A stretch of DNA of 45,825 nt, from IMG/VR virus record IMGVR_UViG_3300009502_000083, positions 1 through 45,825 of that record; one strand, given 5' to 3'. Shown here one piece after another: positions 3,422 to 43,942 of this stretch; within the stretch, counting starts at the first letter, position 1; each line of letters opens with the position of its first letter. The position numbers were made by a program, and so were the translations under genes. Source of the stretch: a virus. Below the pieces are notes generated by a model that worked only from the letters and a program-made list of their open reading frames with translations, was not told the origin of the DNA and did no database searches.

Positions 3422-3882
3422 GTTATAAGGTAGACAATGTTGAATTATACAGTGAAATTTACAACTATCATGAAGATTTGAGACATAATCCAGAGGCTAG
3501 GATTTCTGATAAACTTGGAAAGATGATACATACTATTGCTTTGGGGATGGTAGCTCGTCCAAATTTTTCTGGATACAGTTATAAGGATGAATTTGTGAGT
3601 TTAGGTGTTTACTATGCGTTGAAGTACCTTAAAAATTACAAACTTGAACGTAAGAACAGCCATGCTTGGGTGTCAAAAGTTGTCGAAAACGCTGCCATTT
3701 CGGTAATAAATGACGAAAAAAAGAAGCTTTATGTAAAGTATAAATCACAATTGAACAGCGACAGTATAATGAATATGTCTGACGAGACCAACTCTCAAAT
3801 CCTAAAAGGCACGGCTGGTGATTTCACTAAGATAGAAGGATTTGTAAATGATTTCGAAAATAGTAAAGGATATAAAAAATAG
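3418..3882 (+). CDS. gp55-like late-transcription sigma factor
   Basis: 154 residues. T4 gp55 is a minimal sigma factor that directs host RNA polymerase to late promoters (TATAAATA) with the sliding clamp as activator. The match is to its sigma region 2: AIALGMVARPNFSGYSYKDEF (ending near residue 59), then VYYALKYLKNYKLERKNSHAWVSKV (64-88), then helix NAAISVINDEKKK. T4 gp55 is 185 residues, so this is a slightly short member. The C-terminal FVNDFE could be the clamp-binding tail, but that is inference. Exact TATAAATA octamers before every minus-strand gene in the window support the role. Confidence 0.8.
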   Translation: MSYKVDNVELYSEIYNYHEDLRHNPEARISDKLGKMIHTIALGMVARPNFSGYSYKDEFVSLGVYYALKYLKNYKLERKNSHAWVSKVVENAAISVINDEKKKLYVKYKSQLNSDSIMNMSDETNSQILKGTAGDFTKIEGFVNDFENSKGYKK

Positions 3883-9486: not shown

Positions 9487-10212
9487 ATGAAAATATCAAA
9501 GAGCACTCTTAACTTACTCCTTAGTCTCACTAAGATTAATCCTTCAATCTCTATTAAGAAGGGAAATATTCTATCGACTATCAACATTGGTGTAGTAGAT
9601 GGAAGAACTGTTCCCATCAAAACAGTTCTTATACGAGCAGAGGTTCCAGAGGAATTCCCTATCAATTTCTCAATTTACAATCTAAAGCAGTTTCTAGAAA
9701 TTGTAGACACTTTCGAGGGAGAGCCAGATTTCGATTTCAAAGACTCCTATGTAACAATTTCTGAGAAGAATAATAGCATTCGATATGGATATTGCAAACC
9801 TACTTTAGTCTTAATTTCTGAGTTAGATAATTTGGAGTTAGGAGAAGATAAGGAGAATTTCATGTTAGATTCAAAGACTATCATGAGGCTAAAAAAACTC
9901 TCAGGAGTTTTGAAGCATGATGATTTATTCATAAAAAATTCTTCGGATGGAAAGGGTATAGAGTTTATTCTCACTACGGTAACAGAAGGTTCTACAGGAG
10001 AAGATAGTACAAATGATTCTGTGCTTACAATAGAGAAGGAGACTTCTGCGGAGTTCAATGTGAAAATTTCTATGAAGAATCTTACTTATGTTATCACCAC
10101 AGATAAGGCCGTTTATAATGCAAGAATTGGTAATTATAAGGGCAAAGATATGTTGGTTCTCGAAAACCTTGGAGAGACAAAAATAACCTACTTTGTTGGA
10201 AGGAAGAAGTAA
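9487..10212 (+). CDS. Sliding clamp (gp45-like)
   Basis: 241 residues; T4 gp45 is 228. The clamp forms a trimeric ring that tethers DNA polymerase and, in T4-like phages, activates late transcription with gp55. The start MKISKSTLNLLLSLTKINP and the alternating beta segments (FSIYNLKQFLEIVDTF, FMLDSKTIMRLKKLSGVL, KISMKNLTYVITTDKAVYNARIG) match phage clamps. Position directly upstream of the clamp-loader genes supports the call. Confidence 0.88.
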   Translation: MKISKSTLNLLLSLTKINPSISIKKGNILSTINIGVVDGRTVPIKTVLIRAEVPEEFPINFSIYNLKQFLEIVDTFEGEPDFDFKDSYVTISEKNNSIRYGYCKPTLVLISELDNLELGEDKENFMLDSKTIMRLKKLSGVLKHDDLFIKNSSDGKGIEFILTTVTEGSTGEDSTNDSVLTIEKETSAEFNVKISMKNLTYVITTDKAVYNARIGNYKGKDMLVLENLGETKITYFVGRKK

Positions 10213-12067: not shown

Positions 12068-12988
12068 ATGAAACTTATAAAACCTTCATTTGAAATACTC
12101 GAATCACAAGGATGTCTTAAAGATATCGAACTTGCAGGACGCACCTGCTACCAATCTCAAGATAAAATATCAGAAGATAATTCATCTGCTATAACATTTG
12201 TTAAGAATCTTCTCAAGAGAAAACACTATGCTGTGATTGAGTTTGGAGAAAATGTAGTTCTAAAAATCAATGAACCGCTTTGGAGTTCTTTGATGGATGT
12301 TGCACATATGCCATTCTTTCAATCATTTCAACTTTCTTGTTATTCTTCTAATAAGATTCTTCTCTCCATGAATCCAAGAACCGCTATAGAATTTCTAGAA
12401 TTTATTGCAGAAAATGCAAACCTTTATCATTATGATAGTAATATAAAAAAACTTGCGGATACTATAATAAGTAGTTTTCCACTCACTCTTGTAGGTAGTT
12501 TTGTTTCAGTTTTTCCATATTCACTAACAAATCCAGAATTATATGAACACGCTACTCTAGATTTTGATATCGAAAAACTTGTTCATCATACAGTTACAGT
12601 TAGGATTTCATGTGACAGAGGAGTCTCACATGAAATCGTTCGACATCGTAAATGTTCCTTTGCACAGAAATCTACAAGATACTGTGACGAAAAAGGTGAG
12701 ATTGAGTTTATTGAACCTTGTTGGGATTATGTTGTAGACGGTTCTAATTTTATTTTACCTTTGACGTATGATGAAATTGATTACAAAGAATTACGTAAAA
12801 AAGGTTGGTCTCCTCAAGAAGCAAGAGCTATTCTTCCTAACGCTTTAGCGACCGAGATATACATAAAAGCTCCGATCACTGAATGGAAACATATTTTCAA
12901 ATTAAGATGTGCAAAAGATGCGCATCCGCAAATGCTAGAAATAATGTTGCCTTTAGAAGAAAATTTTAAGAAACGAGGTTTAATCTAA
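12068..12988 (+). CDS. thyX: Flavin-dependent thymidylate synthase ThyX
   Basis: 306 residues. ThyX makes dTMP from dUMP using methylene-tetrahydrofolate and FAD, supplying thymidine for an AT-rich phage genome. The diagnostic motif RHRxxSxxxxSxR is intact as RHRKCSFAQKSTR (192-204). Further matches are DRGVSHEIVRH before it and LPNALATEIYIK after it. The protein is longer than the usual 220-250 residues, with extra sequence near 100-135. Its 3' end overlaps the convergent nuclease gene by 23 nt. Confidence 0.93.
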   Translation: MKLIKPSFEILESQGCLKDIELAGRTCYQSQDKISEDNSSAITFVKNLLKRKHYAVIEFGENVVLKINEPLWSSLMDVAHMPFFQSFQLSCYSSNKILLSMNPRTAIEFLEFIAENANLYHYDSNIKKLADTIISSFPLTLVGSFVSVFPYSLTNPELYEHATLDFDIEKLVHHTVTVRISCDRGVSHEIVRHRKCSFAQKSTRYCDEKGEIEFIEPCWDYVVDGSNFILPLTYDEIDYKELRKKGWSPQEARAILPNALATEIYIKAPITEWKHIFKLRCAKDAHPQMLEIMLPLEENFKKRGLI

Positions 12989-13931
12989 TAAATTCTAATA
13001 TCATTTTTTCCTGAGATATATGTAATGTTTCACTATGACCTCCACCAAACATTATCTCAGGTTTGTGGTATAGAAATAGAGATTTTACCTTATCTTCTAA
13101 TTCCATAACATATTTAGAATCACCTGTCCATTCATATAAGGTTTCACGATTGTATGGCATACTCTTTTTGTGGGTATATCTTTTATCAACGGTTTTTGAA
13201 GTAATTCCAATCTTTAGAAACACTTCAGAATCGTTATAACATTTTAAAAGGTAAATTGTAGCGATATCATATTTTTCCTCGAATCTTATAGCATTTAATC
13301 TTCTTTGATTTTCTGATTTACATTTTGGACATCCGTTGCCTGATAAATGACTTGCTGGTCTTTGTTCAAACTCTCCATGTATAGGACAAATTATTATAAC
13401 TTTAATTTTGGATTGTTTATAATCAACTTTAGAATAATCGTATTTATCTCCATGAACCAAGATTGATCTCTGAACGAATTGTTCTGTTGATGACCTATAT
13501 TCATCAGCTTTGCATTTTGGACATCCGTTGCCTGATAAATGATTATTTGGAATTTGTTCAAACTCTCCATGTTCAGGACAAATGATTATTACTTTACTCA
13601 TACATTGTTTATAATCAACTTTAGAATAATCGTATTTCTTTTCTCCATGAACAAAAATAGCTTTCCGAATGAATTGTTCTATTGATGACCTATCTCCATC
13701 ATCTTTGCATTTTGGACAACCTTGCCCAGATAAATGAGAATTTGGAGTCTGTTCAAACTCTCCATGAATAGGACAAATGATTATTGCTTTAGTTTTGGAA
13801 TGTTTATAATCAACTTTAGAATAATCGTATTTCTTTTCTCCATGAACAAAAATAGCTTTCTGAATGAATTGTTCTGTTGTGGATTTTTTATTGGAACGAG
13901 GCTTATAAATAGAGGTACAGGTGTCTAACAT
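12966..13931 (-). CDS. Cassette copy 1: tandem zinc-ribbon repeats plus GIY-YIG-like nuclease
   Basis: 321 residues. Residues 15-205 hold three repeats of about 62 residues with the plan F..KA..VHG.KYDYS.V.Y...K.IIICP.HGEFEQ.P..HL.G.GCPKC, which I relate to the DUF723 type. Each likely binds zinc through its CP.HG and CPKC cysteines and histidine. Residues 210-321 contain ATIYLLKCYND..VFLKIGITSKTVDKRY, the start of a GIY-YIG (T5orf172-like) nuclease. The build suggests a free-standing homing-type endonuclease with a modular DNA-reading arm. It is minus-strand among plus-strand genes, overlaps thyX tail to tail, and sits behind an exact TATAAATA. Confidence 0.75.
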   Translation of the reverse strand: MLDTCTSIYKPRSNKKSTTEQFIQKAIFVHGEKKYDYSKVDYKHSKTKAIIICPIHGEFEQTPNSHLSGQGCPKCKDDGDRSSIEQFIRKAIFVHGEKKYDYSKVDYKQCMSKVIIICPEHGEFEQIPNNHLSGNGCPKCKADEYRSSTEQFVQRSILVHGDKYDYSKVDYKQSKIKVIIICPIHGEFEQRPASHLSGNGCPKCKSENQRRLNAIRFEEKYDIATIYLLKCYNDSEVFLKIGITSKTVDKRYTHKKSMPYNRETLYEWTGDSKYVMELEDKVKSLFLYHKPEIMFGGGHSETLHISQEKMILEFIRLNLVS

Positions 13932-13968
13932 TTTAGTTTAGTTTAATTATTATGGTTCATTAGATACA

Positions 13969-13999
13969 GCCTTCGGATGCTGGAAACATGGCGGAAGGC
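13969..13999. other. Cassette hairpin 1 (conserved 31-nt structure)
   Basis: The outer 6-bp stem is GCCTTC / GAAGGC, with an inner stem of 3 bp plus one mismatch and a 7-nt loop. On the plus strand the sides read 6-1-4-7-4-3-6 nt. It lies between the cassette ATG and its late promoter. On the plus strand it is followed by ATTTTTATA, so it could also terminate antisense transcripts. Confidence 0.7.
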
Positions 14000-14012
14000 A
14001 TTTTTATACTTA

Positions 14013-14020
14013 TATTTATA
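14013..14020 (-). promoter_or_regulatory. T4-type late promoter (TATAAATA) for cassette copy 1
   Basis: An exact TATAAATA on the minus strand, continued as TATAAATATAAG, 82 nt upstream of the nuclease ATG. This is the octamer bound by gp55-type sigma factors. Confidence 0.7.
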
Positions 14021-14037
14021 AAACTTTAATTCTCCTC

Positions 14038-15288: not shown

Positions 15289-17769
15289 ATGCCAAAAATA
15301 AACGAATGGTTCTACACAAACCTCACATATCAAGATGATTTTATTTATGTGAAAGGTTATTATCAAGATGGGACTCCCTTTATAGGGAGGAAACCATACA
15401 AGCCATACTGTTTTGTAAAAGGAGCAGGAGAGTATAAAACATTTGATGGTTCGTCTCCTCTACGAAAGAAAGAGTTTGAGAGTGTATATGAAATGAAGAA
15501 TTACACTTCTACTAAAAAACCAAATGGAGAATTTCCTGAAGTATTTGGTCTTGGTGTAGATGGAAAGTATATAAGCCAAAGAGAATTGGTCTATAGCTTT
15601 CTTGCTGATAATTTCGAAAAAGAGATTGAATTTAATGTTGATTACATTGGTATCCTGAATTTCGATATTGAGACAACTTCTCTCTCAGCCCAAACTGGTG
15701 AAATTCTTTCTATATCATGTTCAGTAACAAGGAATAAGGAGACTACATATAAAACCTTTGGTCTGAAGTTCTACACAGGCACTGAGGTTCTAAATTACGA
15801 GCGTTGCGATGATGAACAAGAAATGCTGAAGAAGTTCTGTAAGTTTGTCAAAGCTTCTGATGTGGATGTGATATCTGGATGGAATTCTCAAAGATTTGAT
15901 ATTTTATATCTATGTGACAGAGTTTACGAGAATTACAAAAAAGATTGGTTGAAACTTCTCAGTCCATTCGGCTTGATGCCTAAAAAAATTCATAAGAAAA
16001 CAAAAAATCGAAAGACAGGGCAGGATGAGGAATACGATATTTGGAAAATAGAAGGGCTTTCTGATTTAGATGGAATGAGACTCTATGCCAAATATGATAC
16101 TTACAATGGTTCGCTTTCCTTGAATAACATAGCGAAGCGTGAGTTAGGGGAAGAGAAGTTGGATTATTCAGAATTCGGTTCTCTTGCAAGGTTATATGAA
16201 GAGGATTTTAATACTTTTATTAATTATAACCAGAAAGATGTTATACTTGTTGATAAGATTTTAAACAAGACAAAACACATTGAACTTGCTATCACTATTT
16301 CTTTCTTGGCGAAGATAAACTTCGAGGATAGTTTCAGTCCGATTGTGACTTGGGATATTCTTATTTATAATTATTTGTATAATAATGGAATTATAATTCC
16401 TCGTAGAAAGGAAAACAAAAAGGATAAAAAGAATATTGGGGGTGCTGTTCGTGATGCAAGAGTTGGGTTTTCAAACCATGTTATTACTACTGATGCAACT
16501 AGCCTTTACCCTTCTATAATTGTATCGTTGAATATCTCTCCTGAGACTTTCATAAGGAAGGTTACGGATATTAGTGTCGAGTTATTAAATGAAAAGAATT
16601 ACTCTAAGGCTTCTAATGGATGCCTGTTTGATAATAATAAGCAAGGTGTTCTTTCCTATCTCGTTGGAAATATTTTTTATAAGCGAGTAGAGTATAAGAA
16701 TTTGATGAAGGAAGAGAAGAAGAAGAATAATGGTGATAAAGACCTTATCAATAAATTGGATATCTTTCAGTATGCAATGAAGATTTTAATTAATAGTGCA
16801 TACGGGGTATTCTCTTCCGTACATTTCAGATATTTTAATATCGATCTTGCTGAAGCCATAACTGTCACAGGACAGAACATCATTGGGAAAACAAATGATT
16901 CCGTTAACAAATATCTTAATGAATATTTAGGAAATGAGATAGATAAAGATTATATAATCTTCTCCGATACAGATTCATCTGCATTTACAATTGACTCTAT
17001 TGTAAAGAAAAAAAATCCAGAAAATGTAACAGATTTTATGGATGAGTTTTATAAAAATAACATTGAACCATATTTAACCAATGTTATAAATAAGTTTGCA
17101 GTGGATCATAATTTCTTCATAAATTCTATAAGTTTCAAAAGAGAAAAGATAATTACAAAGATGGTTGTACTTGCGAAGAAAAAATACTATGGAATTGTTA
17201 CTGATAATGAAGGATTCAGATACACAAACCCAGAGATGTTTTTGACAGGAGTAGAGATTGTCCGTTCCTCAACACCTGAAGTTGTAAAAATACCTCTCAG
17301 AGAATGCATGAATTTTAGTCTAAGTGGAACAGAGAAAGAGCTTCAGTTGTATATCGAAAAATTCAAAAAAGAATACATGACGCTTACACCAGAAGCTATA
17401 TCATTTCCAAAAGGTGTTTCTGATATGTCAAAATATATACAAAAGACAGGATTTAGAGACGGAACTCCTATTCAGGCAAGGGCATCTATTCTATATAATG
17501 AATTGTTAAAAGAGCATAAATTGGAGACGAAATACGAAGCTATAACTAATACTGACAAGATTAAATTTGTTTACCTTAAAATGCCGAATCCTTTATTTCA
17601 AAATGTTATGGGATTTAAGACTTCTTTGCCGAAAGAATTTGGACTTCACGAATATATTGATTATAATACAATGTACAGTAAAACCTTTCTCTCTCCATTG
17701 GAAAGTATTTTAAATGCGGTTGGATGGTCAGAAGAAAATGATGATGAAAAAGAAGGATTTGATATTTAA
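15289..17769 (+). CDS. DNA polymerase, family B (gp43-like)
   Basis: 826 residues (T4 gp43: 898). The replicative polymerase carries its own proofreading domain: ExoI NFDIETTS (124-131), ExoII SGWNSQRFDILYL (near 195-207) and ExoIII YNQKDVILV (near 314-322). Polymerase motifs: A DATSLYPSII (near 402-411), B KILINSAYGV (near 498-507) and C FSDTDSSA (near 558-565). Motif C has Ser in place of the more common Gly before DTDS. Palm, fingers and thumb appear complete. It would work with the clamp and loader encoded at 9487-11780. Confidence 0.95.
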   Translation: MPKINEWFYTNLTYQDDFIYVKGYYQDGTPFIGRKPYKPYCFVKGAGEYKTFDGSSPLRKKEFESVYEMKNYTSTKKPNGEFPEVFGLGVDGKYISQRELVYSFLADNFEKEIEFNVDYIGILNFDIETTSLSAQTGEILSISCSVTRNKETTYKTFGLKFYTGTEVLNYERCDDEQEMLKKFCKFVKASDVDVISGWNSQRFDILYLCDRVYENYKKDWLKLLSPFGLMPKKIHKKTKNRKTGQDEEYDIWKIEGLSDLDGMRLYAKYDTYNGSLSLNNIAKRELGEEKLDYSEFGSLARLYEEDFNTFINYNQKDVILVDKILNKTKHIELAITISFLAKINFEDSFSPIVTWDILIYNYLYNNGIIIPRRKENKKDKKNIGGAVRDARVGFSNHVITTDATSLYPSIIVSLNISPETFIRKVTDISVELLNEKNYSKASNGCLFDNNKQGVLSYLVGNIFYKRVEYKNLMKEEKKKNNGDKDLINKLDIFQYAMKILINSAYGVFSSVHFRYFNIDLAEAITVTGQNIIGKTNDSVNKYLNEYLGNEIDKDYIIFSDTDSSAFTIDSIVKKKNPENVTDFMDEFYKNNIEPYLTNVINKFAVDHNFFINSISFKREKIITKMVVLAKKKYYGIVTDNEGFRYTNPEMFLTGVEIVRSSTPEVVKIPLRECMNFSLSGTEKELQLYIEKFKKEYMTLTPEAISFPKGVSDMSKYIQKTGFRDGTPIQARASILYNELLKEHKLETKYEAITNTDKIKFVYLKMPNPLFQNVMGFKTSLPKEFGLHEYIDYNTMYSKTFLSPLESILNAVGWSEENDDEKEGFDI

Positions 17770-18145: not shown

Positions 18146-18808
18146 ATGAAAATTTGCATTACTTCCATAAATAAGGATAACTACAATGAACTGTCCGCAA
18201 TTACATGGCCTAATAAAGTAGAGTATGCCAAAAGACACGGTTATGATCATTATCTGAAAACAGAAGAGACCATGTTGAATAATGGTCTCGTAATTGGATT
18301 TGAGAAGATATATTATATTTTAAATATGCTTTCCCACCACGAAGATTATGATTGGATTTGGCATGTTGGATGTGATACTCTTGTCATGAATTATGAGAAA
18401 AAGATTGAGGATGTCATATCACTTGCTACTAATGATGAATCTTTCATTGTTGCTACGGATTGGAATGGTATAAACATGGACAGCTTTCTCGTGAAGAATT
18501 CTCCTAAAGGAAAGAAGTTACTTGAAGATTGTTTTGCAAGTCATGTTCTATACAATCATAGATGGTTTTTCGAACAGCAATTCTTTTGGGATAATTACGA
18601 GACTTTAAAGCAACACATAAAGATAGTTCCTCAAAGAACTATGAACAGTTTTTTGGCGAAGGAATTGTATCCACAGGAGAATCTTTTTGATACATTAGGC
18701 ACTAGTTCTCAATATGTAGATGGAGATTTATTACTTCACTTACCTGGAATTCCTTTGGCGAACAGGATTGATATTTTAAGTAAATTTTTATCTATTGTAA
18801 GAAAATGA
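18146..18808 (+). CDS. Glycosyltransferase, GT34-like (galactosyl/mannosyl type)
   Basis: 220 residues. The N-terminal KICITSINKDNY, then PNKVEYAKRHGYDHYLKTEE, then WIWHVGCDTLVMN and FIVATDWNGINMDSFLVKNS follow the layout of the GMA12/MNN10 (GT34) family, with GCDT in the place of the metal-binding DxD and HLPG near residue 200. It begins a five-gene cassette with four-base overlaps or two-base gaps, so a shared product such as a decorated surface glycan is likely. The acceptor is unknown. Confidence 0.7.
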   Translation: MKICITSINKDNYNELSAITWPNKVEYAKRHGYDHYLKTEETMLNNGLVIGFEKIYYILNMLSHHEDYDWIWHVGCDTLVMNYEKKIEDVISLATNDESFIVATDWNGINMDSFLVKNSPKGKKLLEDCFASHVLYNHRWFFEQQFFWDNYETLKQHIKIVPQRTMNSFLAKELYPQENLFDTLGTSSQYVDGDLLLHLPGIPLANRIDILSKFLSIVRK

Positions 18809-19683
18809 GAAGAACTATTTTAATTACAGGTCATAAAGGTCTTATTGGAACACATCTGAAAGAACATTTCTTTTGTGTGGCGGGGGATGATGTTATTGGA
18901 ATTGGCAGAGAAACGTGGGGGCGTATAAAAGAAAATAAGGAAACATTCTCGACCTTCCTCCATAAACAGAAATTATTTCCAGATGTTATTATTCATTGTG
19001 CAGGAGAGATATACAATGAATCAAATATGTTCGATACCAATGTGGAGCTTACAAAACAGATTCTTGATTATGTTGTAGAGAATTCTAATGTAGAAATGAT
19101 TAATATTTCTTCATCCTCTATATATGGAAAAGTAGGATATCCAACGTCAGAACGTGATATTATCGTCCCACAGGATATTTATTCAACTACGAAGGGGATA
19201 GGTAGCATTATGTCGATAGGATATGGTAGGAGGTACAATCTCAAAATTACAGATGTAAGACCATATTCCATATATGGTGTAGGAGAGAAAAGTCATAAAC
19301 TCCTTCCAAGTCTTTTTAGGGCATTTACCAATAATGAACCAATGGTTCTTTCTGACGGAATGCACGATTGGACATATATCGAAGACTTTCTTGAAGCAAT
19401 AGATAAAATAATCTCAAAGAAAGATAAACCATTCGGAGATATTGTTAACATTGGTTCAGGAATAGAGACCTCAAACTTCGATGTCTATATGGTGTTTGCA
19501 AAGTATTTTGGTTTCGATTCACAGGCAGTGACATTAAATCATGATGGTTATCTGAGAGAAAGAGATACTCGAACATGGTGTTGTAATAACCGATACTCAA
19601 AAGAGTTCTACGATATTGAGTATAAATATACAGTAGAAAATGGAATTTTTAAAATAATAGATAAATTAACAGAAAAATTATGA
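18805..19683 (+). CDS. NAD-dependent sugar epimerase/dehydratase (extended SDR)
   Basis: 292 residues. Rossmann nucleotide motif TGHKGLIG (8-15), active-site Ser around SSSS (102-105), catalytic pair YSTTK (Tyr126, Lys130), then DVRPYSIYGVGE and DWTYIEDFLEAI, both typical of nucleotide-sugar epimerases. It would convert an NDP-sugar in the cytoplasm, feeding the neighbouring glycosyltransferase. It overlaps both neighbours by ATGA, indicating tight co-translation. Confidence 0.85.
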   Translation: MRRTILITGHKGLIGTHLKEHFFCVAGDDVIGIGRETWGRIKENKETFSTFLHKQKLFPDVIIHCAGEIYNESNMFDTNVELTKQILDYVVENSNVEMINISSSSIYGKVGYPTSERDIIVPQDIYSTTKGIGSIMSIGYGRRYNLKITDVRPYSIYGVGEKSHKLLPSLFRAFTNNEPMVLSDGMHDWTYIEDFLEAIDKIISKKDKPFGDIVNIGSGIETSNFDVYMVFAKYFGFDSQAVTLNHDGYLRERDTRTWCCNNRYSKEFYDIEYKYTVENGIFKIIDKLTEKL

Positions 19684-20381
19684 GTACTACTACACTTAAT
19701 AAAATTATCACGAATAAAGGAAACGAAGTTGTTATAGATTTAAATGATCCTCTTTTAAAAGAGCACTTCGAAGCTACCAGTTCATTCACCAATGTCATCA
19801 TCAATCAGATTAACACTGAAGGATTATATACTGAGTACTTTAAGGATTTAAGGAAAAAAGCCACAATCCTTGATATCGGGGCAAATGTTGGCATTTTTTC
19901 TCTTTATGCACAGGATGGTAAAAATAAGGTTTATGCTTTAGAACCAACACCAGAACATTTTGCTCTTCTTGAAAAGACAACAAACGACTTTACTACCATC
20001 AAAAGATTTAATGTTGCACTTGCTCCATATGATGGGAATATTGAATTTTACTTGTGCGATACCAATACTACAATGAACTCAATAGCCAATGGATATGGTA
20101 AATCTATTATTGTTGATGGGATTAGATTAGATAGTTTTATTGAGAAAAATAAGATTAAGACTGTCGATTTTATTAAGATAGATATCGAAGGGTCAGAGAT
20201 GTTAGCTCTTACAGAAGAGATTATAGCAAACGTCAAGGATAAAGTAAAGGTTTGGTTCTTGGAAGTACATGCAACTGATGATAGTTCTCTCCAACAGAAT
20301 AGAAAAATTCTTAAAGAAAGATTTAAGAACTGTGGAATTGAAGTGGTTAATATTGGAAATGATGGATTGATTAGTAAATAA
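19680..20381 (+). CDS. FkbM-family SAM-dependent methyltransferase
   Basis: 233 residues. SAM-binding motif ATILDIGANVGIFSLYA (61-77), acidic loop YALEPTPEHF, and the FkbM-typical VDFIKIDIEGSEM (about 160-172). FkbM-type enzymes O-methylate sugars or small molecules, which suits the surrounding sugar genes. It overlaps the epimerase by ATGA, and a transketolase half begins 1 nt after its stop. Confidence 0.85.
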   Translation: MSTTTLNKIITNKGNEVVIDLNDPLLKEHFEATSSFTNVIINQINTEGLYTEYFKDLRKKATILDIGANVGIFSLYAQDGKNKVYALEPTPEHFALLEKTTNDFTTIKRFNVALAPYDGNIEFYLCDTNTTMNSIANGYGKSIIVDGIRLDSFIEKNKIKTVDFIKIDIEGSEMLALTEEIIANVKDKVKVWFLEVHATDDSSLQQNRKILKERFKNCGIEVVNIGNDGLISK

Positions 20382-20382
20382 T

Positions 20383-21027
20383 ATGAAAGACTCATTGATT
20401 TTAAAGCAATTAGAGAGACGTATCATAGATATAACGTATAATAACAAATTATCACATCTATCTTCCACGTTATCTTCTTTACCTATTATATTGGAAATCT
20501 ATAATCAGAAAAAGGAAGACGAAGTATTCATTCTTTCGAATGGTCATGCAGGACTTGCATTATATGTGGTAATTGAATTTTTCTATGGTATTTCTGCTGA
20601 GTACCTTATCAAGAAACATGGAATACATCCTAGTAGAGATATTGAAAATAAATTGTACTGTTCTACAGGTTCTCTTGGTTCTGGACTTCCTATTGCAGTT
20701 GGTCATGCTCTTGCCGATAGGTCAAAAAACGTTTACTGTTTAGTATCGGATGGAGAATGTGCCGAAGGCAGTATATGGGAATCTCTTGCGTTTATTCATA
20801 AGATAGGATTATCGAATCTTAAAGTTTATACAAATATCAATGGACTCTCTGCGACAGAAGAAATTGATGTTACATATCTAATAGAAAGATTACAGGCGTT
20901 TGTACCTGATAAAGAAATTCTTCATGTACGATATAATATCAAAACACCAGTATCAAGTTTCACACAAGGAATTGAAAGCCATTATCATCAAATAACAAAA
21001 GAAGAATATGAGACGTACATTCTCTAA
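20383..21027 (+). CDS. Transketolase N-terminal (TPP-binding) half
   Basis: 214 residues. Motifs of the transketolase pyrophosphate domain: LSNGHAGLALY (51-61), STGSLGSGLPIAVGHAL (94-110) and the TPP motif VSDGECAEGSIWES (121-134). Stand-alone halves of this type occur in bacterial polysaccharide or secondary-metabolite clusters, with the second half encoded next door, as here. It probably transfers a two-carbon ketol unit to make an unusual sugar precursor. Domain length is somewhat short. Confidence 0.85.
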   Translation: MKDSLILKQLERRIIDITYNNKLSHLSSTLSSLPIILEIYNQKKEDEVFILSNGHAGLALYVVIEFFYGISAEYLIKKHGIHPSRDIENKLYCSTGSLGSGLPIAVGHALADRSKNVYCLVSDGECAEGSIWESLAFIHKIGLSNLKVYTNINGLSATEEIDVTYLIERLQAFVPDKEILHVRYNIKTPVSSFTQGIESHYHQITKEEYETYIL

Positions 21028-21487
21028 GTGTCTTTACGAAGCCATGCAAAAAGATGAGAATATCTACCTACTAACAGGGGATTTAGGATATGGTATTCTT
21101 GATAATATCTTAAAAGATTTTCCTAATAGAGCATTTAATGTTGGAGCAGCAGAACAGTTATTAGTAGGCACAGCAATCGGATTAGCACAAGAAGGAAAGA
21201 TACCGATATGTTATTCGATAACTCCATTTCTTTTATATAGACCGTTCGAGCTTATAAGAAACTATCTTAATCATGAGAAGGCACAAGTAAAACTCGTTGG
21301 TTCAGGAAGAGGGAAGGAATATGAGCATGATGGAATTTCTCATTGGTGTGAAGATGACGAAGATATCATGAACAACTTTGATAATGTTGTATCTTATTAT
21401 CCTGACACTAAGCGACAAATCGTAGACGAGTTCGATGAATTCCTCTACGATGGATGCCCTGCGTACTTGAGTCTATCACGCTTTTAA
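21008..21487 (+). CDS. Transketolase pyrimidine-binding half
   Basis: 159 residues. Starts MRRTFSKCLYEAMQKDENIYLLTGDLGYG and contains AFNVGAAEQLLVGTAIGLA (about 40-58), where the Glu of AEQ is the catalytic TPP-activating Glu. The third, C-terminal domain of full transketolases is absent. It overlaps the first half by 20 nt in another frame, an arrangement suited to a two-subunit enzyme. Its 3' end overlaps the convergent endolysin gene by 12 nt. Confidence 0.82.
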   Translation: MRRTFSKCLYEAMQKDENIYLLTGDLGYGILDNILKDFPNRAFNVGAAEQLLVGTAIGLAQEGKIPICYSITPFLLYRPFELIRNYLNHEKAQVKLVGSGRGKEYEHDGISHWCEDDEDIMNNFDNVVSYYPDTKRQIVDEFDEFLYDGCPAYLSLSRF

Positions 21488-22255
21488 AAGACCTAGAATG
21501 TAGTTGTAACGGGTGGTGGTGTCTTGTAATCCAATGGAGCCACCGTTTACACGTTTCCTTACATTTCCAATATTACCTGTATCAGCAATTTTGTTTATTC
21601 CATTTTTTGACCACCAACTAAGGCTCCCTACTAACGCACCTTCTTTTATGGAAAGGTATTTTATGGTTTCGTCTAGTGATTTCTTTAGAGATAAAGATAG
21701 TGTTGTGTAGTTTTGTTTTCCAGTTATTTGAATAAGGCCACGACCTCTGAACTTCCATCCATCCTGCGAAGCTTCGTCACCATTTCCCATTCGGTTGGCG
21801 TATATACGACTAGCAATCAGGATTTTCTTTCCAACATACTTGTCAACATTCTCTTCGTTAAAATATTTTGGAAATACCTGTAGAAGTCTTTCACGATTAT
21901 AGTTTAAGTTTTCTTCAAGAATTGTAAAGTTTCCTGTCTCGTGTACAGTATTAGCAAGAAATGCAGAAACTCTGTTAATCGTATTTACTTCATAGATAGG
22001 TAAGAATTTCTGAAGAAGAGCAAACCATTCTTTATAATTCGGATTACCTTGAAGGATCTTCTTAAGATCATCGAGAGTCAGGAATGGAATTGCGTATTCT
22101 ACCTTTAATGGTGCTTGAACAATAGGAGCAGTAGGAACAGTAGGTGCTGGAACATCAGTAGGAGCTTTTGGAACAGTAGGAACAGTAGCAGGAGCCACCG
22201 ACGAAGAAGAAGTTTTTTCACCAAATCCAAATATAGTTTTTAATAGTGTAATCAT
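21476..22255 (-). CDS. GH19 chitinase-type endolysin
   Basis: 259 residues. After a short hydrophobic N-terminus (1-11) comes a Pro/Thr/Ala-rich linker (20-50), then a glycoside hydrolase 19 domain. The domain shows VSAFLANTVHETGNF with catalytic Glu106, EENLNYN (114-120) with a second acid, LLQVFPKYF, GDEASQDGWKFRGRGLIQITG, and a C-terminal SWWSKNGIN. Phage GH19 enzymes cut peptidoglycan for lysis. The N-terminal segment may be a weak membrane anchor; a cleavable signal is not evident. An exact TATAAATA lies 16 nt upstream, fitting a late lysis gene. Confidence 0.9.
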   Translation of the reverse strand: MITLLKTIFGFGEKTSSSSVAPATVPTVPKAPTDVPAPTVPTAPIVQAPLKVEYAIPFLTLDDLKKILQGNPNYKEWFALLQKFLPIYEVNTINRVSAFLANTVHETGNFTILEENLNYNRERLLQVFPKYFNEENVDKYVGKKILIASRIYANRMGNGDEASQDGWKFRGRGLIQITGKQNYTTLSLSLKKSLDETIKYLSIKEGALVGSLSWWSKNGINKIADTGNIGNVRKRVNGGSIGLQDTTTRYNYILGLLKA

Positions 22256-22270
22256 TTTATGTTTTTCTTA

Positions 22271-22278
22271 TATTTATA
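22271..22278 (-). promoter_or_regulatory. T4-type late promoter for the endolysin gene
   Basis: Exact TATAAATA on the minus strand, extended TATAAATATAAG. It is so close to the ATG at 22255 that the leader would be only about 10 nt. Confidence 0.65.
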
Positions 22279-22282: not shown

Positions 22283-23551
22283 TCAGAAGAAGGTGTAGTA
22301 AATAAGAGCAGACGTACTCAATGCCATCAAAGTAAAACATAGCCAAGCAAAGATATTATCGACCAAGGTATTTGTATATATCCCCATGATTTCTTTATCA
22401 TTGCATATATGGATTATAAAGTAAATTACAGGACTAGCAGATACTCCATAAAGCAAAGCAGCATAAAGAAGAGAATTGACCACAGATATATGAAAGAATG
22501 GGAGAAACAACGATAATAACATACTAAGTGCTATGATTATATAGAATAAAGGAGCATCTTTATATGATTTTGATAATCCTTGAGGTAAATCGTATAAATC
22601 TGCAATCATAAAAGCGATAGTGCTTGCGAGAACTGGTATAGCAAGAAAGGAAACTCCTATAATTCCAAAAGTAAACAACCAGAATGCATGTTCTCCTGCA
22701 AGAGGAAGCAATGCTTGAGCAGCATCATTAAGGGTTACTATATTATGAATTCCATTAGGAAAGAGAGTAGCACCACATGTTAAGATAATCCCCCATGAAA
22801 TAAGATTAGAGAAAATCATTGCGATATTAGAATCAAATAACATATTCGATAATCTCTTTTTTGTTACATTCGTATATTTTCGCTCTATTCGTTCATCTCG
22901 TTCTGCACTACTTTGATACACCCAACAATAAATTGTTATAGTAGTTCCAAGGACACCTGTTAGTACTAGAAAATATTCCTTAGTCCATTCTATTTGTGGT
23001 ATAAATGTTGCTCTAAGGACTTCAAACCAATCAAGGTGTATGGTTAAAGGAAGAATAAGATAAACTACTAAAGTGAACGCTAGCCATTTTAATACATTTG
23101 ATATGGTTTTGTAACTCCATCCAACTAACGCTACTATCATCATCATCACAAATATAACACTCCAAGTCTGTGATTTAAATTTTGGTACTAACATATGCAT
23201 CACAGACCCAACAGCAAATATATCTGCCGAAATATTTAAGATGATAGCAATAAGTGTTATACTAACAATACTATATAAAACAGATTTAGAATAATGTTCT
23301 TTGAGTACACCAACTAATCCTCTTTTTGTGACAAATCCGATTTTTGCAGACATTCCTTGAATATTTTGCATCAAAGGAATAGTTAGAAGCATAGACCACA
23401 AAAGTTTAAAATGAAATTGTGCACCAGCTTGGCTATATTGGAGAATGCCACTAGCATCATCATCACTTCCAGCAACGATTATCCCAACACCTATTCTGTT
23501 CCAGAACTCTTTAAGTTTACCTATAACTATCGTTAGTGGCTTTTTGCCCAT
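22283..23551 (-). CDS. Nramp-family divalent metal transporter
   Basis: 422 residues from ATG 23551. This start is chosen because the late promoter at 23592-23599 lies inside the longer frame. The protein is a polytopic membrane protein with about 11 hydrophobic segments. TM1 reads IVAGSDDDASGILQYSQAGAQF, the Nramp position of the metal-binding DPGN replaced by DDDASG. It then shows LLWSMLLTIPLMQNIQGMSAKIGFVTKRGL, the conserved Nramp loop, and a TM6-like ATLFPNGIHNIV region. Bacterial relatives with altered DPGN may carry Mn, Fe or Mg. A phage-borne copy is unusual; it may import metal during late infection. Confidence 0.85.
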   Translation of the reverse strand: MGKKPLTIVIGKLKEFWNRIGVGIIVAGSDDDASGILQYSQAGAQFHFKLLWSMLLTIPLMQNIQGMSAKIGFVTKRGLVGVLKEHYSKSVLYSIVSITLIAIILNISADIFAVGSVMHMLVPKFKSQTWSVIFVMMMIVALVGWSYKTISNVLKWLAFTLVVYLILPLTIHLDWFEVLRATFIPQIEWTKEYFLVLTGVLGTTITIYCWVYQSSAERDERIERKYTNVTKKRLSNMLFDSNIAMIFSNLISWGIILTCGATLFPNGIHNIVTLNDAAQALLPLAGEHAFWLFTFGIIGVSFLAIPVLASTIAFMIADLYDLPQGLSKSYKDAPLFYIIIALSMLLSLFLPFFHISVVNSLLYAALLYGVSASPVIYFIIHICNDKEIMGIYTNTLVDNIFAWLCFTLMALSTSALIYYTFF

Positions 23552-23591
23552 AATATGCAGATTTATTGGATTGTTTAGGGGATTACACCTA

Positions 23592-23599
23592 TATTTATA
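23592..23599 (-). promoter_or_regulatory. T4-type late promoter for the Nramp gene
   Basis: Exact TATAAATA on the minus strand, 41 nt upstream of the chosen ATG. It is divergent from the plus-strand promoter beginning at 23618, the same arrangement as at the nuclease cassettes. Confidence 0.65.
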
Positions 23600-23617
23600 A
23601 AAAAGACGTTTTTCTTC

Positions 23618-23646
23618 TTGCATATTCGAAAAATATGTTGTATATT
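23618..23646 (+). promoter_or_regulatory. Putative promoter for the ligase operon
   Basis: TTG at 23618-23620, 20 nt, TATATT at 23641-23646, with the common TTGCATATTC start. It leads into the small gene at 23681 and probably on to the DNA ligase. Confidence 0.7.
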
Positions 23647-24249: not shown

Positions 24250-25689
24250 ATGGAAAACAACATCAATGAAATTTTCAACAAGATTAGAAATACCTCATCG
24301 AAAAATGGAAAGATTGACATTCTTAGAGAGAATTCTGATAATGACCTCTTGAAGAAGATTCTACTTTACACTTACGACCCGACGAAGAACTATTACACTA
24401 CAACTTATGCCTATCCTACAGTAAAGAGTAGTGAACTTGACATCAATCACGTATTTGAGGTATTGGATTCTTTGGTAAGTAGAAAGGTCACAGGAAATTC
24501 TGCCAAAACACTTCTTACTAAAATCGAAGGTCTGCTTAACGAAGACGATTCTGTAGTACTAAGAGGAATCATTGGAAGGTCACAGATGTTAGGAATTGAT
24601 GAGAAGAGCATAAATAAAGTGTTTTCGAATCTTATACCAAGTATCGGCTACTGTCGTTGTTCGCTAAAGCTAGATACTATTAAATATCCTGCAATCATAG
24701 AAACAAAATTGGATGGTTTGTTTTGTAATGTCGTATATGAGAATGGAATCCTTAAATTCCTTACTCGTAATGGAACAGAATTCATCCTAAAATCTCTTCA
24801 TGATGAGATTCTTCATACATTACAAGGCGTAGAAGGAATTGGGGATGTTGTTCTTCATGGTGAGTTGCTTGTATCAAATTTAGCTGGTTCAGTAGAAAGT
24901 AGAAAGATAGGAAATGGTTTGGTAAATTCTATCCTAAAGAAAGAACAGACTCTCGAATCTTTACAGAAAAAAATAGAAGGCACAGAAGGAACATCAAAGT
25001 ATTCTAAGATTAGTTCTGAGATTACTTCAAAGATGAAAGAATTCGAAGATACCGACCATCGTCTCCAAATTGTTTTGTGGGACATGTTGCCTCTCCACGA
25101 ATGGGAATCTGACTATTGTGGGGTTAATTATATAAACAGGTTTAAAACATTAGAAGGTTTAGAAAGTTCTCATGTAAAAATTGTAGAATCGAAAATTGTC
25201 AACAATGTAGAGGAAGCACAAGAATTCTATGCTAAACAGATTGGATTAGGTAGGGAAGGTGCTGTAATTAAGAACCTAATCGCAAAGTGGAAAAATCATA
25301 CAAGTCCTGATATGGTTAAAATGAAAGCGGAGCGCGAATGTGAACTGCTTGTAGTAGGTGTTCAGGAAGGAGAAAAGAAATATACTGGCGGTCTTGGGGG
25401 GTTGCTTTGTGAGTCTTCAGATGGTGTTGTGAAGGTTACTATAGGTTCGGGTTTTAGTGACGAACAGAGAGGATTTAAACGAGTAGACGAAAACGATTCC
25501 TCAAAAGGTTTGAAATTGATTGAAGGATTTGATATAAATTCTTATATTGGAAAGATCGTGACGGGTAGATTCAACGAATTGATCACATCACAAAGTAAAG
25601 ACACATGGTCATTATTCCTTCCAAGACTTATATCTTTCCGAAATGATAAGACAGAAGCAGATAATTTCGAATACATTCAGAATCTATGA
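24250..25689 (+). CDS. ATP-dependent DNA ligase (gp30-like)
   Basis: 479 residues (T4 gp30: 487). Joins nicks in replication and recombination. The adenylation lysine is Lys153 in ETKLDGLF (151-158). The downstream motifs are FLTRNGTEF (motif III region), VLHGELLV (motif IIIa), LGREGAVIKN (motif IV) and DMVKMKAE (motif V). The C-terminal OB domain follows. The N-terminal helical region (1-130) matches T4-type ligases. It overlaps the next gene by ATGA. Confidence 0.93.
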   Translation: MENNINEIFNKIRNTSSKNGKIDILRENSDNDLLKKILLYTYDPTKNYYTTTYAYPTVKSSELDINHVFEVLDSLVSRKVTGNSAKTLLTKIEGLLNEDDSVVLRGIIGRSQMLGIDEKSINKVFSNLIPSIGYCRCSLKLDTIKYPAIIETKLDGLFCNVVYENGILKFLTRNGTEFILKSLHDEILHTLQGVEGIGDVVLHGELLVSNLAGSVESRKIGNGLVNSILKKEQTLESLQKKIEGTEGTSKYSKISSEITSKMKEFEDTDHRLQIVLWDMLPLHEWESDYCGVNYINRFKTLEGLESSHVKIVESKIVNNVEEAQEFYAKQIGLGREGAVIKNLIAKWKNHTSPDMVKMKAERECELLVVGVQEGEKKYTGGLGGLLCESSDGVVKVTIGSGFSDEQRGFKRVDENDSSKGLKLIEGFDINSYIGKIVTGRFNELITSQSKDTWSLFLPRLISFRNDKTEADNFEYIQNL

Positions 25690-30255: not shown

Positions 30256-30684
30256 ATGAACATTGAAAAAGAAAAATTTCTATTCGAAAAGTATCCACAG
30301 CTTTTTAGAGACAAAGATTCCCCAATGACTCATACAGCAATGTGTTGGGGAATAGAAGTAGGAGATGGATGGTACGATATTTTGGATGAACTCTGTGAAA
30401 GAATCCAAACACATTGCGACAATAACGGATATGATGAGGTTAGGTTTTCGCAGATCAAGGAAAAATACGGTACTCTTAGGGTGTATGTAAATTTTGGAAG
30501 TGATGAAATTTATGATTATATTGATGAAGCTCAAGAGAGATCCTCTCATGTCTGTGAACTATGTGGTTCTAAGAGAGGAAAACTGTATGATGACTTCGGT
30601 TGGCTGAGTGTTCGATGCAAAAAATGCAAAACCAAACAAGATGCTTATACCGCTGAAAGATTGTCAAAGCTAACAGAGAAATGA
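30256..30684 (+). CDS. Conserved phage protein with zinc ribbon
   Basis: 142 residues. MCWGIEVGDGWYDILDELCERIQ (29-51) followed by QIKEKYGTLRVYV (72-84) and a zinc ribbon CELCGSKRGKL...VRCKKC (101-104 and 118-122 region) is a recurrent phage protein ('GFE.GDGW..L', 'Q.KEKFG.LR.Y', zinc ribbon). The function is unknown to me. Its 3' end overlaps the convergent cassette copy 2 by 40 nt. Confidence 0.65.
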   Translation: MNIEKEKFLFEKYPQLFRDKDSPMTHTAMCWGIEVGDGWYDILDELCERIQTHCDNNGYDEVRFSQIKEKYGTLRVYVNFGSDEIYDYIDEAQERSSHVCELCGSKRGKLYDDFGWLSVRCKKCKTKQDAYTAERLSKLTEK

Positions 30685-31637
30685 ATGTTTAGAAAATCTA
30701 ATATATCTTTTTCCTGAGATATATGTAATGTTTCAGTGTGACCACCACCAAACATTATCTCAGGCTTGTGGTAGGTAAACTTAGTTTTTATCTCTTCTTC
30801 TATATCAACTACCGTTTTAGAATCACCTATCCATTGATATAATGTTTCGTATTCGTATGGCATAGTGTTATTTCTTGAATATCTTTTTTCTATTGTCCTT
30901 GAGGTTATTCCTATTTTAAGAAAGGTTTCTATATCATTAGTACATTTTAAAAGATAAATAGTAGCAATATTGTATTTATTCTCAAATTTTATTCCTTCTC
31001 TAATTCTTGCATTATCCTTTACACATTTTGGACAATTATGTCCTCTTAAATGGTGATTTGGTGATTGTTTAAATTCGCCATGAATTGGACAAACAATAAT
31101 AACTTTATCACGAGAGTGTGTGTAGACAACTTTGGAATAGTCATACTTTCCTTCTCCATGAATTTTAATAGATTTTTGAATAAAGTCTTTATTTGAATAA
31201 GTTTTTCTTTTTCTTTCTTCAATGTTGCTACATTTTGGGCAACCTCGTCCTTGTAAATGGGCATTTGGTGTCAATTGAAACTCACCATGTATAGGACAAA
31301 TTATTATAACTTTAGTATTGGTGTGTATATAAGCAACCAAAGAATAATCATATTTATCTCTATGAATAAGGGTGGATTTTTCTTTAAAAGTATTTATGTT
31401 TGAAAGATTTCCACATTTTGGGCAACCATGATTACGTAAATGGTGATTTGGTGATTGTTTAAATTCCCCGTGAAGATTACAAATAATTATTAATTTACTC
31501 CCACAATTTTTATATTCAACTTTAGAATAATTATACCGATCACCATGAACTAAGATAGCTTTCTTTATGAATTCTTCTGTTGTAGATTTTTTATTGGAAC
31601 GTAGAGGCTTATAAATAGAGGTGTAGGTGTCTAACAT
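30645..31637 (-). CDS. Cassette copy 2: tandem zinc-ribbon repeats plus GIY-YIG-like nuclease
   Basis: 330 residues. Three zinc-ribbon repeats (about residues 17-205), each ending CPKC, and a C-terminal GIY-YIG-like domain starting ATIYLLKCTNDIETFLKIGITSRTIEKRY. The last 60 residues (KPEIMFGGGHTETLHISQEK) are almost the same as copy 1, whereas the repeats differ more. Start MLDTYTSIYKP is shared with copy 1. It lies behind an exact TATAAATA with an 85-nt leader carrying the 31-nt hairpin. Its tail overlaps an unrelated plus-strand gene, as expected of an inserted cassette. Confidence 0.75.
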   Translation of the reverse strand: MLDTYTSIYKPLRSNKKSTTEEFIKKAILVHGDRYNYSKVEYKNCGSKLIIICNLHGEFKQSPNHHLRNHGCPKCGNLSNINTFKEKSTLIHRDKYDYSLVAYIHTNTKVIIICPIHGEFQLTPNAHLQGRGCPKCSNIEERKRKTYSNKDFIQKSIKIHGEGKYDYSKVVYTHSRDKVIIVCPIHGEFKQSPNHHLRGHNCPKCVKDNARIREGIKFENKYNIATIYLLKCTNDIETFLKIGITSRTIEKRYSRNNTMPYEYETLYQWIGDSKTVVDIEEEIKTKFTYHKPEIMFGGGHTETLHISQEKDILDFLNIHFSVSFDNLSAV

Positions 31638-31675
31638 TTTAGTTTAGTTTAAATTATTTTGATGCATTAGATACA

Positions 31676-31706
31676 GCCTTCGGATGCTGATAACATGGCG
31701 GAAGGC
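31676..31706. other. Cassette hairpin 2
   Basis: GCCTTC / GAAGGC outer stem with the same 6-1-4-7-4-3-6 plan as hairpin 1. Only the loop differs from copy 1. The plus-strand side is followed by a pyrimidine-rich ATTCTTTTCTTTCTT. Confidence 0.7.
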
Positions 31707-31722
31707 ATTCTTTTCTTTCTTA

Positions 31723-31730
31723 TATTTATA
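31723..31730 (-). promoter_or_regulatory. T4-type late promoter for cassette copy 2
   Basis: Exact minus-strand TATAAATA within TATAAATATAAG, 86 nt upstream of the ATG at 31637. Confidence 0.7.
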
Positions 31731-31747
31731 AAACTTTAATTTTCCAC

Positions 31748-38479: not shown

Positions 38480-39243
38480 TTATGATTTTAGGTATTTCAG
38501 AATGTTTATATTTTCATGAATATCAAGACATTCTGAAATGCCGCCAAAATATTGAAATGGTCTATAAGATTTAAATAATTTTATTATATCTGATTCAATT
38601 GCTTCTGCTATTTCACCAAGAAAGTTCCCTTCATATAATATATTATATTTATATGGCATTGCCTTCTTTCCTGAATATCTTTCCTTCACGGAACGAGCTG
38701 TAACTCCAATCTTTAAAAATGATTCTTCTTTATCAAAACATTCTATTAGATATAAAATACAATCTTCTTTTCCATAAATATCTTTCCAAGTATTAGCACG
38801 TAACTTTCTAATCTTATCGTATCCACATTTAGGACAACCTTGCCCATGTAAATGGTTATTCGGATTCTGTTCAAACTCTCCATGTATAGGACAAATTATT
38901 ACTACTTTTGATTTGGAATGTTTGTAATCAACTTTAGAATAATCGTATTTCTTTTCTCCATGAACCAAGATTGATCTCTGAACGAATTGTTCTGTTGATG
39001 ACCTATATGAATCAGCTTTGCATTTTAGACAACCATCGCCTGATAAATGAGAATTTGGTCTTTGTTCAAACTCTCCATGTATAGGACAAATGATTACTAC
39101 TTTATTATGGGCATTAATATAATCAACTTTAGAATAATCGTATTTCTCTCCATGAATAAAAATAGCTTTTTTAATGAATTCTTCTGTTGTGGATTTTTAG
39201 TGGAACGTAGAGGCTTATAAATAGAGGTACAGGTGTCTAACAT
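38480..39243 (-). pseudogene. Cassette copy 3: nuclease gene broken by a 1-nt deletion
   Basis: The minus-strand frame begins ATG at 39243 (MLDTCTSIYKPLRSTK) as in the other copies. The homologous run of six T (plus strand) is only five at 39194-39198, so the frame is lost after about 16 codons. From there to 38480 the correct frame is open, encoding two zinc-ribbon repeats and a GIY-YIG-like end (ILYLIECFDKEESFLKIGVTARSVKERY). A shorter product could start internally (TTG 38968), but it would keep only half the binding arm. One repeat (38971-39023) is almost identical to copy 1 (13470-13522), indicating recent exchange. Confidence 0.75.
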
Positions 39244-39280
39244 AATAGTGTTGTTTAATTGTTATGGGTGATTAGATACA

Positions 39281-39311
39281 GCCATCAGATATTTGCAGTA
39301 TCGTGGATGGC
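39281..39311. other. Cassette hairpin 3 (compensatory variant)
   Basis: Outer stem GCCATC / GATGGC: position 4 is changed on both sides relative to copies 1 and 2, keeping the pair. The inner stem is a perfect 4 bp (GATA / TATC) with a 7-nt loop. Same 31-nt plan. Confidence 0.75.
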
Positions 39312-39319
39312 ATTTCTTA

Positions 39320-39327
39320 TATTTATA
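39320..39327 (-). promoter_or_regulatory. T4-type late promoter for cassette copy 3
   Basis: Exact TATAAATA on the minus strand within TATAAATATAAG, 77 nt before the broken gene's ATG. Confidence 0.65.
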
Positions 39328-39338
39328 AAACTTTAAAT

Positions 39339-39366
39339 TTGCATATTGAAAAAGATTTTGTATATT
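39339..39366 (+). promoter_or_regulatory. Putative promoter downstream of cassette 3
   Basis: TTG at 39339-39341, 19 nt, TATATT at 39361-39366; divergent from the late promoter as in other cassettes. Leader of about 40 nt to the ATG at 39412. Confidence 0.65.
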
Positions 39367-42745: not shown

Positions 42746-43849
42746 TTAAAATTTAAATATTTTGTTAAGACTTTCTGTTAATTTACCATCAGAGTATTCA
42801 GTCTTTAAAATCTTTTCAGTGAGTATAATAAATTCCATTCCATTTTTCTTGGCGTATTCTTTCGCATATTCAAATTTTTGCATATTTTTTACATAATCAA
42901 CACTTTCTAATAAATACTGTTTACTTCGTTTTGAGGGTGGGGATAATTTTCGGTGTGGTTTAATTTCACAAATATATTTATTACCATTTATACTTTCGAT
43001 AAATAGATCAGGGAAATATCTATGCCAAGCCCCATCATAAGATATATATTTTATTATAATTTCCTCTGACGACCATTTTTTAATGAGTTCGCTTCGGTCT
43101 AACCATAAAAACATTCTCAATTCCCATGAGGAACGATATATGCACGAATTAATATTTCCAGTATATTTACTTTCATTTTTAATTTTATAGACCCCTTGAT
43201 TATATCTATTATTCATGTTTAACATGTTTATTATTGAACAGATTGGACAACCTTTATTTCTTAAATGTTCGGATGGTTCTTGTTGAAATTCTCCATGTAT
43301 AGGGCAAATAATTATTACTTTAGTTTGGGACTGTTTATAATAAACTTTAGAGTAATCATATTTTCCTTCTCCATGAATGAGGATAGCTTTCTTTATAAAT
43401 TCTTCTGTTGATGACCTTTGACCATCATCTTTACATTTTTGACAACCATAGCCTTTTAAATGATTATTTGGAATTTGTAAAAATTCTCCATGAACAGGAC
43501 AGATGATTATTACTTTTGTTTTATTGTTTTTGTAATCAACTAAAGAATAATCGTATCGATCTCCATGAATAAGTATAGCTTTCTGAATGAATTCTTCTGT
43601 TGATGACCTTTGTTCATAAACTTTACATTTTGGGCAACCTTTTCCAGATAAATGACTTGAAGGAGATTGTTCAAATTCTCCATGAATTAAACAGATTATG
43701 ATTACTTTTGATTGGGAATGTTTGTAATCAACTAAAGAGTAATCATACTTATCACCATGAATGAGGATGGCTTTTTTAATAAATTGTTCTGTGGTGGATT
43801 TTTTAGTGGAACGAGGCTTATAAATAGAAGTAGATTGGCTGTGTAACAT
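42746..43849 (-). CDS. Cassette copy 4: zinc-ribbon repeats plus PD-(D/E)XK nuclease (gp4-like)
   Basis: 367 residues. Three zinc-ribbon repeats (18-205) as in the other cassettes, but the GIY-YIG end is replaced by an unrelated nuclease. That domain shows YRSSWELRMFLWLD (239-251), WSSEEIIIKYIS (259-270), HRYFPDLFIE (276-285) and YICEIKP (292-298), giving Glu243, Asp281 and Glu295-x-Lys297 as the PD-(D/E)XK site. The pattern closely follows T4 gp4-type head-completion nucleases and TnsA-like enzymes. Same leader, late promoter and start region as the other copies. A homing-type role is inferred. Confidence 0.75.
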   Translation of the reverse strand: MLHSQSTSIYKPRSTKKSTTEQFIKKAILIHGDKYDYSLVDYKHSQSKVIIICLIHGEFEQSPSSHLSGKGCPKCKVYEQRSSTEEFIQKAILIHGDRYDYSLVDYKNNKTKVIIICPVHGEFLQIPNNHLKGYGCQKCKDDGQRSSTEEFIKKAILIHGEGKYDYSKVYYKQSQTKVIIICPIHGEFQQEPSEHLRNKGCPICSIINMLNMNNRYNQGVYKIKNESKYTGNINSCIYRSSWELRMFLWLDRSELIKKWSSEEIIIKYISYDGAWHRYFPDLFIESINGNKYICEIKPHRKLSPPSKRSKQYLLESVDYVKNMQKFEYAKEYAKKNGMEFIILTEKILKTEYSDGKLTESLNKIFKF

Positions 43850-43890
43850 TTTAGTTTGTATTTTAAATTATTATGGTTATCTTACATAGA

Positions 43891-43921
43891 GTCGTCTGAA
43901 GTTCGCACCTTCGAGGACGGC
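43891..43921. other. Cassette hairpin 4 (diverged, structure kept)
   Basis: On the plus strand GTCGTC / GACGGC pairs with one G-U, and the inner stem GAAG / CTTC is perfect with a 7-nt loop. Sequence is largely different from copies 1-3, but the 6-1-4-7-4-3-6 plan is unchanged. Confidence 0.75.
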
Positions 43922-43934
43922 ATTTTTATACTTA

Positions 43935-43942
43935 TATTTATA
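43935..43942 (-). promoter_or_regulatory. T4-type late promoter for cassette copy 4
   Basis: Exact TATAAATA on the minus strand within TATAAATATAAG, 86 nt before the ATG at 43849. Part of the 71-nt block identical to 13997-14067. Confidence 0.7.

Follow-up and report, generated by a model that had tools for sequence, protein, structure and literature searches.

An Nramp-related divalent cation transporter gene with a probable late promoter in a T4-like phage

The window, by which we mean the whole 45,825-base stretch analysed here (IMG/VR virus record IMGVR_UViG_3300009502_000083), carries on its minus strand, at 22283-23551, a gene for an Nramp-related (NRMT-like) divalent cation transporter of 422 amino acids, recognised by Pfam PF01566, AlphaFold and Foldseek. 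The stop lies at 22283 and the frame (22283-23623) is open for 446 codons, with its longest start at 23623; we prefer the start at 23551 because a TATAAATA box at 23592-23599 falls within the longer form, and the 24-codon in-frame 5' extension (23552-23623, minus strand) is probably untranslated. Given the base composition, a stop-free frame of 422 codons has a chance of about 7e-15, and the open reading frame is probably a real coding sequence. On the same strand, at 21476-22255, is a phage lysozyme gene (endolysin or tail lysozyme, chitinase-like; PHROG 181, E = 9.6e-59) with homologues that carry endolysin, chitinase or tail lysozyme annotations; the initial annotation was right to place the transporter next to an endolysin gene. 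The two genes form a minus-strand island between plus-strand operons that end at 21487 and restart at 23681. A phage DNA ligase gene (24250-25689, plus strand; PHROG 114, E = 3.1e-107) on its far side shows that the transporter is embedded in phage DNA; the lysozyme gene and the ligase operon flank it at distances of 30-700 bp. The G+C content of the transporter gene equals that of the phage genes, and its third-position composition is like that of the phage's own minus-strand genes.

By its gene content the virus is T4-like, though divergent. It is marked as T4-like by a gp43-type DNA polymerase (15289-17769, plus strand; PHROG 262, E = 8.9e-212), and it also encodes a gp45-type sliding clamp (9487-10212, plus strand; PHROG 223, E = 4.5e-34), a gp55-type late sigma factor (3418-3882, plus strand; PHROG 234, E = 2.5e-28), a tail tube protein, a helicase, gp47, gp46 and both clamp-loader subunits (gp44 among them). 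The order of the T4-type genes is that of Phage C48C1, with 36-38% identity in the DNA polymerase. Shine-Dalgarno-type starts, counted as a host indicator, number 14 of 65 against 4.5 expected, which is no decisive guide to the host. The plus-strand cassette at 18146-21487 contains a split transketolase-like enzyme (20383-21487; open reading frames of 214 aa for Transketolase_N and 159 aa for Transket_pyr, without the C-terminal domain) together with a GT34 glycosyltransferase, an NDP-sugar epimerase and an FkbM methyltransferase, and suggests a phage sugar-modification pathway.

Both genes of the island are preceded by a TATAAATA box on the minus strand, which starts 48 nt before the ATG at 23551 for the transporter (23592-23599) and 23 nt before the ATG for the lysozyme (22271-22278). 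The box occurs 22 times in the record, where 7.5 copies are expected and the maximum of 60 simulations was 17. Its longer form, TATAAATATA, has eight copies. Seven are on the minus strand, six of them no more than about 110 bases before a gene, or the remnant of one, on that strand: those of four homing-endonuclease units (mutually related, so that their copies count as one event) and those of the lysozyme and transporter genes. In T4, the gp45 clamp co-activates late transcription. Because gp55 and gp45 are encoded alongside the TATAAATA boxes, the late promoter proposed in the initial annotation is well supported, and the transporter would be expressed late from a T4-type promoter of its own.

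Other repeated elements occur in the record. A TGTTGTATATT box at 23636-23646 on the plus strand probably serves the divergently transcribed operon on that strand as an early or middle promoter, a function suggested by its recurrence shortly before plus-strand genes at 734, 8344, 9439 and 23636. The four related homing-endonuclease units (12966-14030, 30645-31740, 38480-39340 and 42746-43950, all minus strand, one a remnant) have near-identical 5' regions, in which the minus strand carries TATAAATATAAG and an opposed TATAAATA lies about 110 bases from it on the plus strand (13904, 31610, 39216 and 43819). The last third of one of their frames (42746-43849, minus strand) matches PHROG 218, whose "head closure" label probably reflects the mixed membership of that family. 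A thymidylate synthase frame (12068-12988, plus strand), with a family match confined to its C-terminal part, overlaps the end of a convergent homing-endonuclease gene.

The transporter matches the Nramp profile PF01566 over positions 4-356 of 357 (E = 8.7e-63; 212.9 bits against a cut-off of 29.8 bits), while no PHROG family matches it (best E = 0.033). Among solved structures, the best sequence match is EleNRMT (7QIA; E = 1.6e-45, 159 bits), with the next structure at 54 bits. The AlphaFold model, computed from a 53-row alignment that excluded plasmid-derived rows, is a complete fold (pLDDT 90.6, pTM 0.90) of LeuT type with broken TM1 and TM6, the breaks falling at residues 31-32 (TM1) and 205-206 (TM6), where Nramps have their ion site. 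EleNRMT is the top Foldseek match (TM 0.85), followed by canonical Nramps; a structure search of a viral protein model library gave no Nramp among its matches and weak amino-acid-transporter similarities at most. The description of the protein as a full-length polytopic Nramp thus holds, and no key membrane helix, the loss of which had been raised as grounds for doubt, is missing from the model, in which the fold is complete and the helix breaks are in place.

Canonical Nramps (clades A-C) bind their ion through DPGN in TM1 and A-x-x-M-P-H in TM6. Both DPGN and MPH are absent from the phage protein, which has DASG and TIY instead: its TM1 motif is D30-D31-D32-A33-S34-G35 (23447-23464, minus strand), where relatives have DDDPSG, and its TM6 motif is T203-T-I-T206-I207-Y208 (22928-22945, minus strand), where relatives have TTISPY. 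The published ion-site signature of the NRMTs, which carry Mg2+, is DxxG-TxxA/T (PMC8806188), and D32-A-S-G35 with T203-T-I-T206 fits it. The initial annotation had seen DDDASG in place of DPGN as a departure of the phage protein; the motif is indeed present at residues 30-35, but only its exchange of proline for alanine is peculiar to the phage, since the bacterial relatives carry D-D/N-D-P-S-G. Across 82 relatives, D30, D32, G35, T203 and Y208 are invariant and the position of the canonical methionine is Ser in 76 and Thr in six; at residue 31, 57 of the 59 other sequences of a 60-row alignment have Asp and two have Asn. Apart from the alanine, then, the alignments present DDDASG as the ordinary site of its bacterial group and not as a phage invention. 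The suspicion that the ion may not be Mn or Fe is likely to be correct, and the NRMT signature points to Mg2+. The signature alone is not proof of Mg2+ transport, because EcoDMT with an engineered NRMT-type site transported none (PMC8806188).

Proton-pathway residues of TM3 and TM9, a feature of canonical clades A and C, are also lost (E124L, D131I, R352I and R353I), H232 is Tyr and E134 is Asp; loss of canonical proton-pathway residues has been described for Nramp-related proteins (PMC12873925). In a mutational scan of DraNramp (preprint, PMC13060092), M230A, M230S and M230T gave the highest Mg2+ import, Y54D and H232Y occurred within Mg2+-importing variants, and with M230A in place the P231-H232 positions tolerated change. 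The phage residues at DraNramp positions 54, 230, 231 and 232 are Asp, Thr, Ile and Tyr, so that the residue types at 54, 230 and 232 match those of Mg2+-importing variants, which we regard as the strongest argument for Mg2+, albeit one drawn from a distant homologue.

None of the 60 aligned sequences departs from conserved residues as often as the phage copy: of 115 columns with a conservation of 85% or more it differs at 31, against a median of 3 in the other sequences. Eight conserved glycines and four conserved prolines are gone, namely P22, P357 and both helix-break prolines, although AlphaFold retains the breaks in TM1 and TM6; the loss of both helix-break prolines and of the eight glycines sets the phage protein apart, and these changes could have altered its activity. 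The nearest relative is 44% identical. In the tree, its neighbour is a branch made up mostly of Bacteroidota (support 99/94), and its own branch measures 1.9 changes per site, a length that makes the placement less certain. In this phylogenetic placement, of the kind proposed in the initial annotation, it groups with EleNRMT and apart from the canonical Nramps; its membership of an NRMT clade would depend on the single NRMT included and on long intervening branches; Nramp-related proteins have been called paraphyletic (PMC12873925). Because the frame is intact and all site residues have been kept over a branch of this length, we infer that the gene has been under purifying selection for function during most of its history.

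Full-length Nramp-type transporters appear to be very rare in phages, in line with the initial annotation. The window protein had no match in 50,697 phage records, and its Spirosoma relative and EleNRMT as queries gave weak matches at most. Escherichia coli MntH found 12 "phage" records, all unannotated, many a few kb long and two more than 90% identical to E. coli MntH; these short records, partly near-identical to bacterial mntH, were judged to be host DNA or unverified. In IMG/VR, group-specific patterns found three full-length Nramp-related genes and two end fragments, and DPGN-type patterns found no canonical Nramp. Two of the three contigs with a full-length gene, L008 and L010, were set aside as probable host flank on account of their bacterial-type gene neighbours (a sensor/cyclase gene after phage-tail-like genes; a Kup-like transporter). 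The third, probably an actinobacterial prophage, has a very divergent Nramp-related gene (L009:9983-11254; branch 3.05) with a lysis module on one side and a serine recombinase on the other, a candidate for lysogeny-borne cargo. A single-sequence pattern search of viral and genome contigs gave no close relatives of the transporter, the first 25 kb of the record had no near DNA match among phages, and a single DNA polymerase sequence recovered no sister phages. With a two-sequence DNA polymerase alignment as bait we obtained 80 T4-like contigs (at most 37% identity), none with an Nramp gene in the stretches covered, and there was none in 15 whole T4-like records or in Phage C48C1. Our literature search on phage Nramp or Mg2+ transport genes returned nothing relevant. 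Within the limits of these searches, in which patterns miss divergent copies and records very near the window may be left out, no confirmed (lytic) phage in the collections has an Nramp relative in its core genome, which makes this a rare find.

The protein is probably a complete and working metal-ion transporter. From its directly supported family, completeness, site residues, phage context and late promoter sequence we infer an ion, a direction and a benefit: we favour, as somewhat better than an even bet, a late, uncoupled, NRMT-like divalent-cation uniporter, acquired from bacteria and transcribed through gp55 and gp45, that most likely carries Mg2+ and also Mn2+. The gene would have been taken up long ago by a T4-like phage from a bacterial donor, probably of a Bacteroidota lineage, and its late transcription, under gp55 and gp45, would start from the TATAAATA promoter that it has to itself. 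Its product would insert into the host inner membrane and let Mg2+ flow in, driven by the membrane potential and without proton coupling. Its likeliest benefit may be to keep free Mg2+ high for replicated DNA, nucleotides and the packaging ATPase before lysis, a service to replication and packaging suggested by the late timing and by the Mg2+ demand of DNA and ATP. The comparison contains one relative proven to transport Mg2+, EleNRMT, at 29% identity, and the surroundings of 40 bacterial and archaeal relatives yielded no Mg2+ or Mn2+ riboswitch.

Alternatively, a working transporter could serve mainly to bring in Mn2+ or another transition metal, for late phage enzymes or for protection from oxidative stress. 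EleNRMT carries Mn2+ too, and Mn2+ transport survives the exchange of Nramp for NRMT site residues (PMC8806188), but the methionine that bars alkaline-earth ions is absent from the phage site, which has Thr there, and the PH on which Mn2+ import relies is IY; we think such a role unlikely, though it is the first of the remaining possibilities, ahead of one in lysis or exclusion and then of a passenger gene. The second of these would make the protein a repurposed or leaky member of the Nramp fold, turned by its lost helix-break prolines and glycines into a conductive pore, a blocker of superinfection or an aid to lysis. Its departures from conserved residues, glycines and prolines included, are the most numerous among the 60 sequences, it adjoins a lysozyme gene with the same type of promoter, and an uncoupled uniporter would, if highly expressed, presumably lower the membrane potential; yet all ligand positions are retained, nothing is unusual in the modelled fold or its helix breaks, and EleNRMT too has Ala at the TM1 proline position, so that we rate this reading a little lower still. 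More speculative is a late ion conduit loosened by the proline losses that, with the lysozyme, would tune or collapse the membrane potential and Mg2+ and thereby time packaging and lysis; improbable as it is, it would, if true, be a new kind of phage-made ion control.

That the gene is a functionless passenger, caught from a host and decaying, might be read from its absence from all other T4-like phages examined and from its many changed conserved residues, but an intact frame and a full set of site residues at branch length 1.9, a late promoter of its own and a third-position composition like that of the phage's minus-strand genes make this quite improbable. An assembly chimera or misbinned bacterial DNA, conceivable for a single record to which no close phage relative was found, is very hard to reconcile with the close phage flanks, the T4-type late promoter and the shared G+C content.

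Compared with known systems, the transporter is most like EleNRMT of Eggerthella lenta (PDB 7QIA/7QJI), with which it shares the fold, the DxxG-TxxA/T site, the alanine at the TM1 proline position and the absence of the proton-pathway residues save an acidic residue at 134; EleNRMT differs in its sequence (29% identity), in Gly54 and Ala230, in keeping the TM6 proline and in being encoded by a cellular gene. With the bacterial and archaeal DDDPSG/TTISPY group, whose Bacteroidota branch is its nearest in the tree (99/94) and for no member of which we found a transport test, it shares up to 44% identity and the ligand positions D-x-D-x-S-G and T-x-I-S/T-x-Y, and it differs in lacking the helix-break prolines, P22, P357 and eight glycines, in its branch of 1.9 and in being phage-encoded behind a late promoter. 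Canonical MntH/Nramp proteins (DraNramp, E. coli MntH and BfraNramp) have in common with it the Nramp fold, the unwound TM1/TM6 site and the core aspartate; the phage protein differs from them in being without DPGN, MPH and the proton-pathway residues, at about 14-20% identity over the structural alignment. Its presumed expression is of T4 type, with gp55 and gp45 encoded and TATAAATA before both lysozyme and transporter, whereas no Nramp gene occurs in the covered stretches of the 80 T4-like contigs. Phages carry metabolic genes, and the family itself is known; what is new is the phage carrier and the proline-free site. If the transporter works, a lytic phage takes over the host Mg2+ supply late in infection, and the way in which a cell satisfies the Mg2+ requirement of a phage DNA burst becomes directly testable. 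The proline-free site, for its part, is a naturally occurring means of asking which features of the Nramp ion site are needed for Mg2+ transport.
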